Source: an uncultured Opitutia bacterium
GTDB taxonomy: Bacteria; Verrucomicrobiota; Verrucomicrobiia; Opitutales; Opitutaceae
Reading direction: 5' to 3'
Length of the DNA stretch: 64,000 nucleotides
Assembly: GCA_903896015.1 (NCBI GenBank)
Contig: CAITWF010000021.1
Coordinates: forward strand, 1 to 64,000
Positions 44,878-52,514 of this stretch are shown here, in pieces (positions within the stretch are counted from its first letter, which is position 1; every line of letters starts with the position of its first letter). The notes beneath the pieces were generated by a model that did not search any database, had not been told where the DNA came from, and saw nothing but the letters and a program-made list of their open reading frames with translations. The position numbers and the translations under genes were made by a program.

Positions 44878-46776
44878 CTACTCCACCGCAGGCTTCGGCG
44901 TCTCGGCGGGCGGCATCTCCGCGACAGGCGCGGGCGTTTCCGCCGGAGCCGATTCCACCACGGGCGCGGATGGCGAAGCTTCGGCCACGGGGGTCGACGC
45001 CGGCACTTCGGGGAAGTTTTCCGGATCGTGCTCCTCGGCTTCGACTTCCTTTTTGCGCGCCTCGACCACTGGCGGCGGCGCAAACAGGCGACCGTCGATG
45101 AACTCGGTTACGTAGCCTTCGCGCACGAGCCACACGAGATCCCCTTGCAGACGGGAAATCTTGGCGCGTTCGTCGATCGAGAGGGTTGGCTCCGCGGATG
45201 GAGCAGCGCCCTCAGCAGATGCGGCGGCGGGTGCAGGCAGCGTGACGCCCATGAATTTTCCGGGCAGTTCGCTCGCGCGGATCATTGGGTTCGCCTCGAT
45301 GAACGCAATGAGCGCACCAATGCTGTCGGAGAACGTCTGGCCCGGCGTGCGGAATTTCCGCTTCACGGCGCAGACGTAGCTCACGCCCTTTGAACCCTTC
45401 TTGAAAATCGTGAAATGTTCGCGGCGGAGACGGCCGCGCAATGCGTTCGCGGTGTCGAGCGGGAATTTCCGCTGGCGCTCAAGTGCGCCCTCGATCGCGC
45501 GGCGGATTTCGCCGGGCGGCATCGTCTCGGCGACCGCGCCGTGAAAACGAGCGTTCTCCGAGGCGCGGACGACTTTGTCGCGCGCCTGCGTGAGCAAATA
45601 TACTCGCGCGTCTTCGAGCGTGTCGAACGACGGAGCGGTGGGCGCGGGCGCGGTTTCGGCGGGCGCCGGTGCCTCTGCCACCGGTGCGGGTGCGTCGGCA
45701 GGAGCGGGCGCAACATCGGCAGGCTGCACCTCGGCCGCCGCGGCCGGAGCCACTTCGGGCGTCGGGGCGGGTTTGGGCGCGCCGGAGAGTTTCCACGTGT
45801 AGCGCGTGGTCTTCTTCATCTTGTCGAGCCACTGTTTCACGACCTCCGGATCACGGATCGTTTCAATGCGGCTGCGGAAGGCCTCGAAGGCCATGCGCGC
45901 GACTTTCGTCGCATGGTGCTGCTGCACGATTTGATTGTAGCGGTGATAATTCGGCGGCCCGAGCAATTCGCCCGTCACGCCGCACTTGTTAATCACCTGA
46001 TAGTTTCCCTTGGGCGGCTCGATCTCGACCTCAGCCATGTCGAAGAACGTTCCGAGGTGTTTTGAGAGGACGTGTGCGACTGCCGCCTCGTCGCTTTCGA
46101 ACGGGAGATGATCGGGCACGGAAATGTAGAACGGTTGCTTCGCGGGGCGCGCGGCCGGCTCAGTCCCGGCGACCGTGGGTGCGGCGGATTCGGCTGGCGT
46201 CTTGCGCGTGACGACCACGACAAAACGCTCCGTCTTCGCAACGACGGTGCGCGCGATCTCGAACAGTTCGATCGTGCGGCAGGACTTGCGGATAGTCTGC
46301 ACAAGCGTGTTGAAGCTCGTGTCCTCGGGATAAAACGTGACGGCGAAAAACGGGCTCTCGTAGGGGCCGCGTTCATATTGCTCGTTGCGACCGCCGTAAC
46401 GCGGTCCATCGCGGCGCGGGCCGCCGCGGTAGTTGCCCGGGCCGCCTTCGTCGCGGCGCGGACGTTCACCGCCTGGAAATTCGCGACGCTGCTCAGGCGC
46501 GCCGCCTGGACCTGCTCCACCGGGAGCATCACCGGGACCGGCCGGGCCCGCCGGACGCCGGAACGTCCGACGATCGCGCGACTGAGGCCCCCCACTCGGG
46601 CCATCACGCCGGTCATCGCGACGCGGACGATCGCCACCAGAGTCGCGATCGCGGCGCTCGGAGGGCGAGGACTTGTCCTGCGTCCATTGCGTGCCGAAGC
46701 TGAAGCCTTGAAGCTGGCTCAGATCGAGTTTATTGAAATCCGCGGGCGGATTCTCCTGGGGAGGTTGGTCGTCCAT
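44878..46776 (-). CDS. large low-complexity protein with RG-rich N-terminus, 632 aa
   Basis: ATG 46774-46776 starts MDDQPPQENPPADFNKLDL. Residues about 30-170 are Arg/Gly/Asp/Pro-rich and disordered (RG/RGG-like, such as GNYRGGPRRDGPRYGG). A folded part follows (FFAVTFYPEDTSFNTLVQ, then VINKCGVTGELLGPPNYHRYN), then Ala/Pro/Glu-rich linkers around a second folded block (QARDKVVRASENARFHG to LRREHFTIFKKGSKGVSYVC), and the C-terminus is Ala/Pro/Glu-rich. The RG-rich tail and GPPNYHRYN block suggest RNA binding. I do not recognise a named family; it looks lineage-restricted. Confidence 0.7.
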   Translation of the reverse strand: MDDQPPQENPPADFNKLDLSQLQGFSFGTQWTQDKSSPSERRDRDSGGDRPRRDDRRDGPSGGPQSRDRRTFRRPAGPAGPGDAPGGAGPGGAPEQRREFPGGERPRRDEGGPGNYRGGPRRDGPRYGGRNEQYERGPYESPFFAVTFYPEDTSFNTLVQTIRKSCRTIELFEIARTVVAKTERFVVVVTRKTPAESAAPTVAGTEPAARPAKQPFYISVPDHLPFESDEAAVAHVLSKHLGTFFDMAEVEIEPPKGNYQVINKCGVTGELLGPPNYHRYNQIVQQHHATKVARMAFEAFRSRIETIRDPEVVKQWLDKMKKTTRYTWKLSGAPKPAPTPEVAPAAAAEVQPADVAPAPADAPAPVAEAPAPAETAPAPTAPSFDTLEDARVYLLTQARDKVVRASENARFHGAVAETMPPGEIRRAIEGALERQRKFPLDTANALRGRLRREHFTIFKKGSKGVSYVCAVKRKFRTPGQTFSDSIGALIAFIEANPMIRASELPGKFMGVTLPAPAAASAEGAAPSAEPTLSIDERAKISRLQGDLVWLVREGYVTEFIDGRLFAPPPVVEARKKEVEAEEHDPENFPEVPASTPVAEASPSAPVVESAPAETPAPVAEMPPAETPKPAVE

Positions 46777-47060
46777 GTCGTCCGAAAAGCGGGTGCGAAC
46801 CCGCGTGTGTTGGCGTGGTGAGTCGGTGCAGTTTGCAGTCGCCGGAGAGTGTCCAAGCCCGCCGCGAGAGTGGCAAGCAGTTTCCCGGCGTGTTGAACAG
46901 GGCGCAGACCGGCCCAAACAGGCTCAGTGCGTCGCCCAACGGAATGTTTTGCCACCTGGGAGCGGTCCAGGTAGGCGACGCCCGCAAAGCACCTGGCGCC
47001 AGCCACCACGCTCCCTTTGCGGTTGTGCGGTCCACCGGCAAAGCGGCGGGCCGGGCGGAG

Positions 47061-47957
47061 TCACCAAAAAAAACACGACGCCTTAGGATCCAAATATTCG
47101 CGCGAAGGCATGTCGGGGACGACCCGCCACACTGTCGCATATTTCGACCAGGCACCCGGCAACTCGCCATCAAAGGTCACCGACCATGCGGCTTCGCGAT
47201 GCGGCTTCCGATCGAAGACGCGGCGGAGAAATTCCGCGTGGCCTTCCTCGCCGGCGAAGTAGAGACAGCGCCGCTCGAAGGGATTCGGCACATCGCGCAC
47301 CACACTGCGCAGCTTGTAGTAGCCGACGACGAATTCGTTGCGCGCCAACTCGACCGCCGCGCGTGCCGCCGCCGAACGAAACGTCGCCCCGGCCGAGTAG
47401 CCGTAACTCACGTGGCCCGCCGCCGAACGGCGAAACAGAATCGCGACCTCGCCGATCTTCGACTCGTGCTCAATGCGCAGCGCCGTCACGCCGAGCAGCG
47501 CATCGCCGACGACCGAGGCCCGCAGATGGCCGGACCACCACGCGACAAGGGCCCACCGTTCGAGCGCCTCGAGGTAGGCTCGCTTGCGCGCCGACGATTT
47601 GAACAAGCCGGGAAACGCGGCCATGCCGTTGGTCGAGTTATCGATGTCGAAGCCGTATTTCGCCGCGTCGTCACCCTGCGAGGTTTCGTAGAATGCCCAG
47701 CGTTCGAGCGCCTCGGAGATCGCCATGTGCCGCGCGACCTGCACGGATGTGCTGGCGCCGGTGCCGTCGGCGTTGCCATAAACACACAGCGCTGGCTTGC
47801 CGCGGATGAGCCCCGGCGCAAGATACGCATTAGCCTGATGCGCCTTCTTCCCCAACACATCGATCACTCCGGTGGAGACCCGATCAATCGGGCCGCCCTC
47901 GGTCGTGAACACGTCGCGGTAGTTAATCGCGGCGAGGCTGAGGCTGAGATCGAACAT
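47061..47957 (-). CDS. compact YcaO-family protein (possible RiPP cyclodehydratase/thioamidase-like)
   Basis: A 298-residue protein with the main YcaO ATP/substrate blocks in order: GNADGTGASTS (61-71), ARHMAISEALERWAF (75-89, the AxxxAIxEALER motif), STNGMAAF (108-115), ARKRAYLEALERWALVAWW (123-141), and GATFRSAAARAAVELARNE (190-208). YcaO enzymes use ATP to activate backbone amides, giving azolines, thioamides or amidines in peptides or proteins. It is shorter than usual and lacks the Pro-rich C-terminus common in azoline-forming members. A run of eight T lies in its last codons. It starts 24 bp after a 56-residue signal-peptide-bearing gene. No E1-like, TfuA or dehydrogenase partner is visible nearby. 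Confidence 0.78.
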   Translation of the reverse strand: MFDLSLSLAAINYRDVFTTEGGPIDRVSTGVIDVLGKKAHQANAYLAPGLIRGKPALCVYGNADGTGASTSVQVARHMAISEALERWAFYETSQGDDAAKYGFDIDNSTNGMAAFPGLFKSSARKRAYLEALERWALVAWWSGHLRASVVGDALLGVTALRIEHESKIGEVAILFRRSAAGHVSYGYSAGATFRSAAARAAVELARNEFVVGYYKLRSVVRDVPNPFERRCLYFAGEEGHAEFLRRVFDRKPHREAAWSVTFDGELPGAWSKYATVWRVVPDMPSREYLDPKASCFFW

Positions 47958-47981
47958 GGTGACGAGGCTTACCAGGATAAA

Positions 47982-48152
47982 TCAGTTGTCGTCCGTCATC
48001 ACACAGGGCAGGCCGGGACCATCCATCACAGAACCCGAGAGCGAGGTGGACTTGCTGGAGATCGAGTCGAATTTCTCAGCAGCTTTGGAAACACCGGCGA
48101 ACAGAAACAACGTGGAGGCCACGGCGAAGAGGAGAGCGATGAGTTTTTTCAT
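47982..48152 (-). CDS. 56-aa signal-peptide-bearing small protein upstream of YcaO
   Basis: ATG 48150-48152, stop 47982-47984. The first 24 residues are a clear Sec-type signal peptide (MKKLIALLFAVASTLFLFAG with cleavage likely after VSKA). The rest is about 32 residues, Ser/Thr-rich (FDSISSKSTSLSGSVMDG) and ends with PGLPC followed by VMTDDN, with a single Cys at residue 50. It is on the same strand and 24 bp from the YcaO gene, so it is the candidate substrate, though a Sec signal is unusual for a RiPP precursor. The frame is too short to be found by length filters. Confidence 0.65.
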   Translation of the reverse strand: MKKLIALLFAVASTLFLFAGVSKAAEKFDSISSKSTSLSGSVMDGPGLPCVMTDDN

Positions 48153-48200: not shown

Positions 48201-48262
48201 TTACCTTTGTGGCGGTATCGGACTACCTTTTTAAAGGTAGCCGACTACCTTTTAAAAGGTAG
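48201..48262. promoter_or_regulatory. 22-bp-periodic palindrome array between the YcaO operon and sensor kinase
   Basis: Two 18-bp inverted repeats, CTACCTTTTTAAAGGTAG (48223-48240) and CTACCTTTTAAAAGGTAG (48245-48262), have centres 22 bp apart, i.e. about two DNA turns. A degenerate third unit in the same phase (48201-48218, TACCTTT and GGTA arms retained) precedes them. They lie upstream of the small protein and overlap the candidate start of the divergent kinase. A dimeric regulator binding cooperatively is the likely reader; the pattern could also form RNA hairpins. Confidence 0.8.
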
Positions 48263-51200
48263 CGCGCTATTGTTCCTAGGGGTCGCAATCCCTCCCCTTT
48301 CGGCGGAAATCCCTGAGCAGGGTCCGATCTCCTCCGCCATCGCGCCCGGCCAACTCGATGGCGAAGCCACTGTCTGGCAGATCGTTCAAACGGCGGAGGG
48401 GCAAATCATCGCGGGCGGAAGCCGCATTGGTTTCGAAAACGAGGGCCGGTTTGAATTCCTCCCACTGCCAAGAAAGGAGGCCGTGCGCAGTCTCCTAGTT
48501 GACGGCAACACGCTCTGGGTCGCTTCGCTGGGGGAGATCGGAAAGCTGACCCTTCCGCTCAACCACGCGAGTCGCTACGAAAAATTAGATTCACCATCAC
48601 TCGCTTCGGCCGGTGAGTTCTGGAGCCTAGCGAAAGTCGGCGATGCGCTCGTTGCCACGACGAAAGAAGACGTGTGGCTGATCAATCCACGAACAAGGGA
48701 TTCACACAGGATAAATATCCCGAGCCGGTTTCGCCTATTGTCTGTGCCATGGGATGGCAAGGTCGTCATCGCAAAGCCGAATGGCGCTTTGTGGACAATC
48801 AAGAATGGCAGTTTAGAGCCGCTGGAGAATCCGCTGCCCAACAAATCCGATTCAGCATGGCTCTGGACCGGCCTCGGACATATCCTCACAACCGCAGCAC
48901 TCTATACTAAGGACGGCAGCGCTTATCAGCGCACAACCGACGTCAAGGAGCTGAACCAAGCTCTAATCACCTCCGTCGTCTCCTGGGGCAAGTTCATCGC
49001 AGTCGCGACCTATACCAAAGGCCTCGCTCTCATCGATCCCGACTCAGGCAAGATCGATTTTGTCACGCGCGCCACGGGCCTGCCGACGCTTGGAATCACG
49101 TCGCTGTTCGCTGACAAGGACGGCCATCTTTGGGCCGGCACCAATCAAGGGATCGTCGTGTTTGAGTCGCTGAAGTTCGGGCACCGCGTCGCCACGAAGG
49201 ACTACCCGCTCGCTGCCGCCCGGGCAGACGGGCTGCTGATCAGCCACGAGGATCACACGGATTATTTTCACCGCGATGGGCGCGAGGAAATTTTACCGCG
49301 CACGTATGCCCTCACGCCGACGAACCAAGGCCTCGCGATCGGCCTGTGGGGAAAAGTTCGAATCGGTGAACGAGAAATCGCGACACCAGGGAACAAGGTC
49401 GACCTCATCACGAGTCTGCCAAATGGCGACGTGTTGGCTGCCGCCAGCGAACGCCTCTACGTCGTCGACGTCGCCGCGGGCAAGGCCGAGCTCGTGCAAA
49501 AGCAAATCGGCGAAGTCTCGGGGCTCGCACTCGCCGACGGTCAGCTTTGGGCGGCGACGTTCGATGGCGCGCTCTATCGCGCGGAGCCCAAGCCACCCTA
49601 CGCCTTCGAGAAAGTCGCAACGCTCCCGAATGGCACCAGCGCCAAGCTCCACGCGCTCGGAAACACGTTGATTGTCGCCTCGCCCGACGGCATGCGCACC
49701 GGCGAAGATTTTGCCGCCGTCGCGCACACTGCCGGCGTGCGCCAGCCGCGGCTCGCGCGTTCCTCGTCCGATCTTTGGCTCGTCGCCGAGCAGGACGGCG
49801 CGCACCGGCTCGGCCGGCTCGTGCAAACTGACGCCGGAGTTTCGTGGGAGACCGTCGAGGCCAAGGGGCTCGCCGCCCTGCCCGACGTGCATTATTTCTC
49901 AGCGAGCGGCGACACACTCACGCTTTGCGGCGGCAATATCATTCTCGAGCTCGACGCCCGCGAACTTACCCCCGCATACCGCCTCGATCCTCCGCGTCTC
50001 ACCTTTGCGATCGGCAGCGAAAAATCCGCCGCAAGTTCCGCGCTCGCGACCGTGCCCGAAAAAATCTCCGCCGACCAGAACCGGCTAACGTTCACCGGCG
50101 CACTCCCTGCCGACGCGTTCGGCGAAAGACCCGCCTACGAACGCCGCCTGCTCCCCACCGAGACCGCGTGGATTCCCGCGAAGGCCGGCGAACTGGTGAG
50201 CTATCCCTCGCTCGCACCGGCCCGTTACACGCTCGAAGTGCGCGCCACGCACCTCGGCCGCACCGGCGCCGTGGTTTCGCAGACGTTCACCGTGTTGCCG
50301 CCTTGGTATGCCTCGCCGGGCGCGCTCGTCGGCTACGGCGTCCTCGTGCTGCTGTCCTCCTACGGCATCTTCCGTTTCCGCACACACCAAATCCGCAAAC
50401 GCAATCTTGAGCTCGAACGGCTCGTCGATCAACGCACCCACGAGCTCGCGCAGGCCAGCGCGGCGAAGACGGAATTTCTCGCCTCGATGTCGCACGAGAT
50501 TCGCAACCCTATGAACGGCGTCATCGGCCTCGTAAACATCCTGCGCGAAGAACCGCCCGGCCCGCGCCAAAAACACATGTTCCGCAAACTCGCCGGCTGC
50601 GCCGAACAACTGCGCACGACCGTCGACGACATCCTAGATTTTTCAAAAATTGAAGCCGGCAAGGTCGAGCTGGAGCGCCGCCAATTTGACCTTCTCGAAA
50701 CACTTGAGGCCGCCGCCGCCACGATCGATCCCGGGGAGACCAAAGTCAAATTCCTCGAGCCAAAACCACCCCAACTCGCGCTCTTGGGTGATGCCGGAAA
50801 ACTCCGCCAGATCTTCGCGAACTACCTCAGCAACGCGCTCAAATACGGCCTCCCGCCCGAAGCCCGCGTCAACACCATCCTCGTGCCCGGCGACGACGGC
50901 GTGCGGCTCACGTTGAGCGTCACCAGCTCCGGCCCGACGATCGCGAAGGACACGCTCGACAGCTTCTTCGAGAGCTTCGCGCGCGGCGCCGATGCGATGG
51001 AGCGCAACATCCATGGCACCGGCCTCGGCCTCGCGATTTGCAAACGCTACGCGCAGGCCATGGGCGGCGAAGTCGGCGCCGTCAGTACCAACGGTGAAAC
51101 CACGTTTTATCTCAACGTCCCCTTCGCGACGGCCGAAGCCACCGACCTCGCGCCGCTCGCCACGCCCGAGCCCTCCGCGCTCCCCGCGAAGGCGCTCGCC

Positions 51201-51833
51201 ATCGAGGACGAGGACTACAACCGCATCGTCCTCGGCAATATTCTTGCGAAGGTGAATTATGCCGTCGACTGGGCGAAGACTGGCGCCGAGGCGCTCAAGC
51301 TCGCGCAGGAAAACGGCTACGACATCGTCCTCACCGACTACCGCCTGCCCGACACCAACGGCGTCGATCTCGCGCGGGAAATTCTCCGCCTCTGCCCCGA
51401 GCCCAAGCCCGCCGTCTTCGCCGTCACCGCCTACTCGACGCGCGAACGCAAGGAGGAGTGCATGCGCGCCGGAATGGCCGGCTTTATCAGCAAACCGATC
51501 ACGCTGGAAAAACTCCGAGCCACGCTCGCCGGCTGGGGTGATCGCCAGCTCACGACGATCTCGCTCGAGGCAAGCCGCCAACGCCCGCCGCCGCAGACGC
51601 CCGCGGCGATCGAGTCGGGTTGGGCGGAGCTGAAGCGCGCCGCGATGTTTGACTCCAAACGCGCCGCCGAGCTCGCCCACCGCCTCAACAACGTCTGCCG
51701 CGCCTTCAACTATCTCGATCTCGCCGAGCAACTCGAACTCCTTGAGGGTGCGCTGGAGCGCGACGAGCCTGCCGCGCCGTTCCTCATGGCCTGCGAGCGG
51801 CTCCTGCATCCCGAACCAGTCGAGAAAAACTGA
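48207..51833 (+). CDS. hybrid sensor histidine kinase with propeller-like sensor, receiver and Hpt domain
   Basis: About 1208 residues. There is no ATG; TTG 48207 gives a signal peptide (basic start, then LLFLGVAIPPLSA), while TTG 48270 has a better Shine-Dalgarno-like AAAGGT 9 bp upstream but no basic n-region. Residues about 45-570 are repeated strand motifs of a two-component propeller (for example LWVASLGEIGKL and LWAGTNQGIVVF), then a Y_Y_Y-like domain, one membrane segment near 700-725, HisKA with His763 (SMSHEIRNPMNG), HATPase (N-box NYLSNALKYG, GTGLGLAICKR), a receiver with Asp1044 (TDYRLPDTNG) and Hpt with His1158 (AHRLNN). The usual G1 box Asp of the ATPase (DxGxG) is replaced by SSG. 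Confidence 0.88.
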   Translation: MWRYRTTFLKVADYLLKGSALLFLGVAIPPLSAEIPEQGPISSAIAPGQLDGEATVWQIVQTAEGQIIAGGSRIGFENEGRFEFLPLPRKEAVRSLLVDGNTLWVASLGEIGKLTLPLNHASRYEKLDSPSLASAGEFWSLAKVGDALVATTKEDVWLINPRTRDSHRINIPSRFRLLSVPWDGKVVIAKPNGALWTIKNGSLEPLENPLPNKSDSAWLWTGLGHILTTAALYTKDGSAYQRTTDVKELNQALITSVVSWGKFIAVATYTKGLALIDPDSGKIDFVTRATGLPTLGITSLFADKDGHLWAGTNQGIVVFESLKFGHRVATKDYPLAAARADGLLISHEDHTDYFHRDGREEILPRTYALTPTNQGLAIGLWGKVRIGEREIATPGNKVDLITSLPNGDVLAAASERLYVVDVAAGKAELVQKQIGEVSGLALADGQLWAATFDGALYRAEPKPPYAFEKVATLPNGTSAKLHALGNTLIVASPDGMRTGEDFAAVAHTAGVRQPRLARSSSDLWLVAEQDGAHRLGRLVQTDAGVSWETVEAKGLAALPDVHYFSASGDTLTLCGGNIILELDARELTPAYRLDPPRLTFAIGSEKSAASSALATVPEKISADQNRLTFTGALPADAFGERPAYERRLLPTETAWIPAKAGELVSYPSLAPARYTLEVRATHLGRTGAVVSQTFTVLPPWYASPGALVGYGVLVLLSSYGIFRFRTHQIRKRNLELERLVDQRTHELAQASAAKTEFLASMSHEIRNPMNGVIGLVNILREEPPGPRQKHMFRKLAGCAEQLRTTVDDILDFSKIEAGKVELERRQFDLLETLEAAAATIDPGETKVKFLEPKPPQLALLGDAGKLRQIFANYLSNALKYGLPPEARVNTILVPGDDGVRLTLSVTSSGPTIAKDTLDSFFESFARGADAMERNIHGTGLGLAICKRYAQAMGGEVGAVSTNGETTFYLNVPFATAEATDLAPLATPEPSALPAKALAIEDEDYNRIVLGNILAKVNYAVDWAKTGAEALKLAQENGYDIVLTDYRLPDTNGVDLAREILRLCPEPKPAVFAVTAYSTRERKEECMRAGMAGFISKPITLEKLRATLAGWGDRQLTTISLEASRQRPPPQTPAAIESGWAELKRAAMFDSKRAAELAHRLNNVCRAFNYLDLAEQLELLEGALERDEPAAPFLMACERLLHPEPVEKN

Positions 51834-51854: not shown

Positions 51855-52514
51855 TCACGCCCCGCCCGACGTCGAGCTCAGCCGATCGATCGTCGTGAAG
51901 CCCATCCTTAGCGCGTAGGCTTGCAGTTCCTGCGCCGAGTGGAGGTTGAGTTTGCTCATGACATTGCGCCGATGCGACTGCGCCGTGCCCGCACCCATCC
52001 CAAGCTCGGCCGCCACCTCCGCATCGGTGTAGCCCGCGCCGATGAGTCGGAGAAACTCCTGTTCGCGCTGCGAGAGCAACTTGTCGAAACTCGACTGATC
52101 GCGCGCGAGGCGCCCGCGCCGCTCCACGAAACGCGGGCTGAAAAATGCCCCGCCTGCCGCCACCATCTGGATCGCCGTCAGCAGCATTTTCGGCTCCTCG
52201 TCCTTGTGCACAAAGCCCTGCACGCACGCATGGCTCACGCGATGCACCACGAAATCTTCGCACGACGAGGAAAAGAGCAGCACGGGCGTGGTCACGCGCG
52301 CCTTCACGAGCTCGTCCACGAAATCAATCCCGTCGCCATCGGGCAGCCGGATATCGAGCAGGATCAAATCAGCCGAGCGCAGCGCTTCAAAATCGTTGCG
52401 CAGCTCGGCGAGGGTGCCGGCTTCCAGCACCACCTTGCCCTTACACTCCTCGATGAGCAGCTTGCGAATCAGGGCGCGAAACATCGCCTGATCCTCTACC
52501 AGCACGAACTTCAT
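51855..52514 (-). CDS. NarL/LuxR-type response regulator
   Basis: A 219-residue regulator. The receiver (residues 1-120) has acidic pair ED in VLVEDQAMFR, phospho-acceptor Asp in LILLDIRLPDGDG and the Lys in GFVHKDEEP. The C-terminal HTH (LSQREQEFLRLIGAGYTDAE, then SHRRNVMSKLNLHSAQEL) is a LuxR/NarL DNA-binding domain. It is convergent with the sensor kinase (21 bp between their stops) and could receive phosphate from its Hpt domain, an inference from position. Confidence 0.9.
   Translation of the reverse strand: MKFVLVEDQAMFRALIRKLLIEECKGKVVLEAGTLAELRNDFEALRSADLILLDIRLPDGDGIDFVDELVKARVTTPVLLFSSSCEDFVVHRVSHACVQGFVHKDEEPKMLLTAIQMVAAGGAFFSPRFVERRGRLARDQSSFDKLLSQREQEFLRLIGAGYTDAEVAAELGMGAGTAQSHRRNVMSKLNLHSAQELQAYALRMGFTTIDRLSSTSGGA

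Follow-up and report, generated by a model that had tools for sequence, protein, structure and literature searches.

A compact YcaO enzyme, a variable cysteine peptide, and a hybrid sensor kinase form a possible peptide-signaling module in Opitutales

Because a small peptide gene and a compact YcaO gene are inherited together across the order Opitutales, almost always beside a kinase with a fast-changing sensor, the locus described here appears to represent a family of modified signal peptides that has not been reported before. Judged from this comparative evidence, a signaling role is likely. The original prediction had described a stand-alone YcaO-peptide pair in the window (the whole 64,000-nt stretch of DNA that was analyzed), and its coordinates ended before the kinase gene, the regulator gene, and two palindromes; the pair is in fact part of a larger module. 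The two reading frames that it had given and the 24-nt gap between them were recovered as described. The features of the locus are as follows.

47061..47957, minus strand: compact stand-alone YcaO, 298 aa (PF02624, AlphaFold model, and profile alignment)
47982..48152, minus strand: precursor peptide gene, 56 aa, with a Sec-like leader and a variable core (homologs at 57/59 Opitutales YcaO loci)
48081..48152, minus strand: leader or predicted Sec signal, residues 1-24 (MKKLIALLFAVASTLFLFAGVSKA), with cleavage predicted at an A-x-A motif
47985..48026, minus strand: probable core region, residues 43-56 (MDGPGLPCVMTDDN), with a conserved Pro-Cys (alignment, in which C50 is nearly invariant, and repeated-core lengths in relatives)
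48223..48240, no strand: palindrome CTACCTTTTTAAAGGTAG (TACC-N8-GGTA), probable regulator-binding site
48245..48262, no strand: second palindrome CTACCTTTTAAAAGGTAG (TACC-N8-GGTA), 22 bp from the first
48204..51833, plus strand: divergent hybrid sensor kinase with a periplasmic beta-propeller sensor, TM helix, HisKA, HATPase_c, and receiver (start TTG 48204 or TTG 48270)
51855..52514, minus strand: DNA-binding response regulator, 219 aa, with a receiver and a LuxR/GerE helix-turn-helix (domain matches)

Identity and distribution of the YcaO enzyme

The window YcaO scored 26.3 bits against Pfam PF02624 (cut-off 25.7), and this thin score was accepted because 23 of the 27 members of its family also matched PF02624 and because a confident AlphaFold model (pLDDT 90.2) aligned to YcaO structures. 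Using VIA-align, the model was matched to McbD (Z 17.5), M. kandleri YcaO (16.8), LynD (16.7), and E. coli YcaO (12.9), and only YcaO proteins scored above the best non-YcaO match (Z 6.1). The YcaO fold is predicted to be present, and on this basis the 298-aa protein is a true YcaO, as originally called.

By profile alignment, residues E130, E133, R134, and E203 correspond to E199, E202, R203, and E290 of E. coli YcaO, and E82/E85 were matched by eye to the first E-x-x-E motif (E75/E78 of E. coli YcaO). The E. coli residues E75, E78, E199, E202, and E290, which we take to be the ATP/Mg-binding carboxylates, are thereby all kept (E82, E85, E130, E133, and E203). Catalytic-site positions were at least 90% conserved across the family; the S71 equivalent is a Met that is not conserved in the family, and the R286 equivalent is variable. 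The protein ends in a conserved FFW, in line with the earlier remark that it has no Pro-rich C-terminus.

Azoline and TfuA partner systems were considered and rejected. The marks expected of an azoline-forming (TOMM/LAP) cyclodehydratase system were absent: the NCBIfam SagD model gave 17.7 bits against a cut-off of 219, and no azoline partner (C protein or RRE) was seen at the window locus, as first noted from the window itself, or recurred across loci. TfuA (PF07812) had no match in the whole window genome, while a control genome did match. TfuA-independent thioamidation, as by E. coli YcaO, may be compatible with this absence.

Relatives of the enzyme were found in 18 of 57 related genomes and in 40 of 373 genomes of the order, and all 14 YcaO-positive genomes in a sample of 388 from the phylum belonged to the Opitutales. 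The window itself comes from a 4.96-Mb genome in the Opitutaceae lineage, and the closest named relatives are Opitutaceae/Opitutae MAGs. Distant homologs (33-35% identity) occur in Bacteriovoracaceae. At two such loci, L033 and L034, the gene upstream of YcaO codes for a protein of the peptide-binding type (SBP_bac_5 in L033; in L034, a 505-aa homolog) and is directly followed or overlapped by YcaO. L033 also has a kinase gene downstream, and no small precursor was recognized near either YcaO. Within the Opitutales, one subclade (L049 in G011 and L045 in G034) has a YcaO that has lost catalytic glutamates (E85A, E133K, and E203A in one, E130A in the other). Its cores are odd and Cys-poor, with GGGIIIK or DGDIIIR at the end, which would suit an abandoned modification.

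A precursor gene directly upstream of YcaO

Absence of the small gene beside homologous YcaOs would have counted against the original prediction; a related peptide gene was instead present upstream of YcaO at 57 of the 59 distinct Opitutales loci that retained upstream sequence. The distance between the two genes was mostly 1-45 nt and reached 250 nt in some families. At the two exceptions, either no peptide gene was found (L053) or the locus has decayed (L054), the leader in the latter being fused to the decayed YcaO (G017:C61). When a profile of 29 precursors was run against 57 whole genomes, strong matches (E <= 1e-8) fell at YcaO loci only, and no orphan precursor away from YcaO gave a strong match in these genomes. 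One genome (G032, locus L040) carries a second, truncated precursor downstream of YcaO (G032:C5:30364-30480).

The window precursor had a dN/dS of 0.26 against the sister genome. A chance open reading frame or artefact was ruled out by this value, by the conservation at 57/59 loci, and by repeats with a pN of 0 (see below). Conserved leader, variable core, and adjacency to a modifying enzyme are features of RiPP precursors, and all were found here. From these comparisons the precursor-YcaO pairing is very likely, and we regard it as highly probable that the peptide is the substrate of the neighboring YcaO. The precursor-enzyme relationship proposed at the outset is supported by the conserved N-terminus and variable core, the identical tandem cores, the near-universal Cys, and the Cys/Thr exchange described below.

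Leader and export

The N-terminus of the window precursor consists of MKK followed by 19 uncharged residues and a SKA|AEK site, as judged by hydropathy and motif only; G20, A24, A25, and D29 are invariant or nearly so in the alignment. By hydropathy and an A-x-A site, the N-terminus is Sec-like in 42 of 57 precursors including that of the window, in keeping with the signal peptide initially proposed. The resemblance is lost in families f20 and f11, in which the N-terminus is shortened or charged and a related motif is kept (e.g., SLLSTLFLNLG, IVSILRTVVYNVG). Both families still keep peptide, YcaO, and kinase. Since they lose the Sec look yet retain the motif, the conserved N-terminal element may first of all be a recognition leader for YcaO. 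In the window family, the peptide is probably exported.

A Sec signal on a YcaO substrate had been called unusual; among RiPP precursors in general, Sec signals are reported to be rare and to have been shown experimentally only for bufferins (PMC12452194). No paper on a YcaO precursor with a Sec signal was found in the literature searched, which lay mostly outside subscription journals.

A hypervariable core built around cysteine

The C-terminal half of the precursor is hypervariable except for its Cys, and it usually ends around a Pro-Cys. In 51 of 57 precursors the C-terminal part contained a Cys, and Pro-Cys occurred in 32/57 where about 7 were expected from shuffling. Many cores contain C-x-x-P-C, many others have a single Cys, and six of the 57 have no Cys in the C-terminal part, most of the YcaOs of these six being intact. 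In one family (P-T/S-x-P-[C/T]-E-V), the same place is taken by Cys or Thr (PSYPCEV, PTWPCEV, PTFPTEV, and PTYPTEV), an exchange that YcaO heterocyclases tolerate. The Ser/Thr-rich tail with one Cys of the original prediction was thus borne out for the single conserved Cys, usually as Pro-Cys, and not for its Ser/Thr richness: no conserved Ser/Thr positions were found in the alignment, in which only Cys, Pro-Cys, G20, A24, A25, and D29 hold.

Tandem cores, three to four copies each, were found in three precursor types: three copies of SLGCAQLPCYHRDF in L052 and its relative L095, four of AFCDTVCNF in L100, and three of TCTWPCE in L110. Between copies within one gene, pN was 0 and pS was 0.5-1.2, i.e., the DNA has diverged while the peptides are identical, which indicates that the short identical core peptides are the selected product. 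These repeats argue strongly, at the level of sequence, against an ordinary small periplasmic protein. We consider it probable that the core is modified by YcaO, and a heterocycle, held at a little under even probability, is one possible form of this modification.

A hybrid kinase with a propeller sensor

The kinase gene is transcribed divergently from the peptide gene, on its other side from YcaO. Pfam identified Reg_prop, HisKA, HATPase_c, and receiver domains; Y_Y_Y was unmatched, and that fold was inferred from the model. The sensor model (pLDDT 88.6) matched the periplasmic domains of the Bacteroides hybrid two-component systems BT4673, BT4663, and BT3049, with E values near 1e-22 to 1e-25. 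Taken with the domain order, the model identifies the protein as a predicted HTCS-type sensor, with a double propeller and a Y_Y_Y-type domain followed by HisKA, HATPase, and receiver.

Such a kinase was present at every Opitutales YcaO locus with enough upstream sequence, and a NarL/LuxR-type regulator at most of them. Among 57 relatives, the kinase (E <= 1e-70) was found in 18 genomes and YcaO in 18, with both in 16. The only constant partners of the kinase across loci were the peptide and YcaO, and the module has no carbohydrate genes. Paralogous kinase-regulator pairs away from YcaO had no such peptide beside them. A single clade uniting all YcaO-linked kinases was not supported, the label needing 8 changes on the tree, though this is far below the 17 needed when it is shuffled. 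Extra kinase or receiver genes often lie 3' of YcaO. On that side of the window YcaO (44878-46917, minus strand) is a gene for a 679-aa Pro/Ala/Arg-rich protein that has no Pfam match and is conserved in the nearest relatives; in these relatives, though not in the window genome, a 258-aa HATPase_c gene separates it from YcaO.

Paired palindromes upstream of the peptide gene

The two palindromes sit between the kinase and peptide genes, and their TACC-N8-GGTA form is what one would expect of a site for a NarL/LuxR-type regulator. A TACC...GGTA palindrome was recognizable at 17 of 57 loci, with about 0.6 expected by chance (an estimate). Relative to the peptide start its positions clustered near -87 or -65, and it occurred in several families, in which the centers differ. 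Coding constraint may account for part of its conservation in some close relatives, where it overlaps with the opening codons of the kinase gene. When palindromes in general were sought upstream of the other loci, only 18/56 beat their own shuffles.

A wider regulon was considered and rejected, as no other copy of the palindrome, with up to one mismatch, was found elsewhere in the window genome. The site being unique to the locus, no wider regulon and no downstream behavior are visible from it.

Sensor divergence and covariation with the peptide

Between the window and its sister species, identity was 89% for YcaO, 86% for the kinase core, and 43-46% for the sensor. For 11 other kinase pairs from the same two genomes (kinase core >= 75%), the N-terminal part was 54-90% identical, the window sensor thus being the lowest of 12 comparable kinase pairs; another Reg_prop protein from these genomes was 78% identical over the whole protein. 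With YcaO distance removed, distance between peptide cores tracked sensor distance (partial Mantel r 0.136, p 0.003) and did not track kinase-core distance (r 0.004, p 0.45). Because leader distance also correlated with sensor distance (r 0.192), these values lend weak and not decisive support to ligand matching, i.e., to a peptide core matched to its cognate sensor.

Proposed mechanism and alternatives

We propose that the locus encodes a self-regulated peptide signaling (autoinducer) module, a reading to which we assign an even chance. Comparative evidence underlies its precursor-enzyme step: the N-terminal half of the 56-aa precursor would serve as a recognition leader, doubling in the window family as a Sec signal, and at the conserved core Cys, replaced by Thr in some relatives, the compact YcaO would activate the backbone amide and install a modification, with a heterocycle of the thiazoline/oxazoline type or an amidine as the best candidates. 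The subsequent steps we infer from the sequences. After export and trimming to roughly 9-14 residues, the modified peptide would be detected by the kinase through its propeller sensor; a phosphorelay would then pass from the kinase to the NarL/LuxR-type regulator, which, on the paired palindromes, would drive the peptide-YcaO operon. We lean slightly towards the peptide being the ligand of the kinase. Several observations weigh against the autoinducer: Bacteroides sensors of the HTCS type bind glycans (PMC3243724), the palindrome is recognizable at a minority of loci (17/57) and reveals no wider regulon, leader distance as well as core distance follows the sensor, families f20 and f11 have no clear Sec signal, the TonB receptors at some loci and the Cys-rich cores would also suit metal binding, and one subclade has lost catalytic residues.

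The main rival to the autoinducer is a glycan- or metal-sensing kinase that merely induces the peptide: an outside cue (e.g., a glycan) would be sensed, and the YcaO-modified secreted peptide would have another job and not be the ligand. Propeller sensors are fast-evolving in general, and this one folds like the glycan-sensing domains of Bacteroides HTCS (PMC3243724); against that, it is the fastest of the 12 comparable pairs, and a module that lacks carbohydrate genes and has peptide and YcaO as sole constant partners fits a glycan cue poorly. We judge this explanation unlikely, though it deserves to be taken seriously.

Hypervariable cores and self-regulation by a dedicated two-component system would also suit a narrow-spectrum antimicrobial RiPP with autoinduction, similar to lantibiotic or LAP clusters. 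No immunity gene, exporter, or protease recurred at the loci, however, and each locus has one small peptide, which makes this role rather improbable. Still less probable is a metal-binding peptide (chalkophore or buffer) similar to methanobactin or bufferins, with YcaO in place of the MNIO enzyme. Cys-x-x-Pro-Cys cores in many precursors would fit it, as would the TonB receptors that adjoin YcaO in f20 and f11 (L104:806-3535 and L106:6653-8959 by Pfam, L089:10439-13168 by position and size), but many cores have a single Cys, six of 57 have none while most of their YcaOs are intact, and no metal genes recur. With immunity, export, and metal genes not recurring and some cores without Cys, the antimicrobial and metal roles are less favored than the autoinducer.

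Finally, a protein substrate of YcaO is known from E. coli, in which the enzyme modifies ribosomal protein uL16 (PMC13063428), and the small protein might by analogy be an ordinary periplasmic regulator of the kinase with YcaO modifying another protein, which is very improbable given the adjacency at 57/59 loci, the variable cores, the identical tandem cores under selection, and the lack of any co-occurring known protein target.

Relation to known systems

Neither a YcaO from Opitutaceae nor the combination of peptide, YcaO, and kinase was found in the literature searched (mostly outside subscription journals). Among stand-alone YcaO enzymes of RiPP pathways, the bottromycin YcaOs are unfused, with a small adjacent precursor gene and no azoline partner. 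The streptamidine family (PMC8442711) resembles the window locus in these same respects. Both differ from it in forming actinobacterial clusters with several tailoring genes. Compared with them, the window system has a smaller enzyme, a Sec-like leader, and a two-component system as constant partner. The HTCS of Bacteroides sit in polysaccharide loci and carry their DNA-binding domain in the same chain, whereas the window kinase lies beside a peptide operon and has its LuxR-type regulator encoded as a separate protein. With BT4663, BT4673, and BT3049 it shares the fold of the sensor and the order of domains, and HTCS-type sensors of Bacteroides bind glycans (PMC3243724).

Bufferins and other MNIO-modified peptides (PMC12452194) likewise have Cys-bearing Sec-type precursors encoded directly upstream of the modifying enzyme, but that enzyme is of another family, the peptides bind copper, the partners are of DUF2063 type, and there is no dedicated hybrid kinase. 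In its logic, the proposed module is comparable to Gram-positive peptide quorum sensing such as agr (PMC10885120, on AgrD maturation), with a variable short Cys peptide, a conserved leader, a dedicated modifying protein, a cognate kinase with a fast-changing sensor, and autoinduction. The comparison is one of working principle only: no parts are homologous, AgrB being a membrane protease and AgrC not a propeller kinase.

Enzyme family and sensor type are known, and it is their combination that was not found in the literature searched; we regard the system as a stand-alone YcaO RiPP that has a genuine chance of being a new signaling class. Cell-to-cell signaling in the Opitutales might rely on a new class of peptide pheromones, in which short peptides are modified by YcaO, exported through Sec, and sensed by hybrid kinases of the propeller type, with peptide and sensor forming species-specific pairs; we hold this tentative proposal at a little under even probability.

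For most stand-alone YcaO enzymes the substrates are unknown, and the loci collected here offer about 57 enzyme-precursor pairs with readable cores; in several of these pairs, tandem cores point to the probable length of the mature peptide. A modification, if confirmed, would mean that Sec-type RiPP precursors can also be processed by way of a YcaO. To our knowledge, no peptide pheromone has been described in Verrucomicrobiota; if the kinase reads the peptide, modified-peptide signaling would be present in this Gram-negative phylum.
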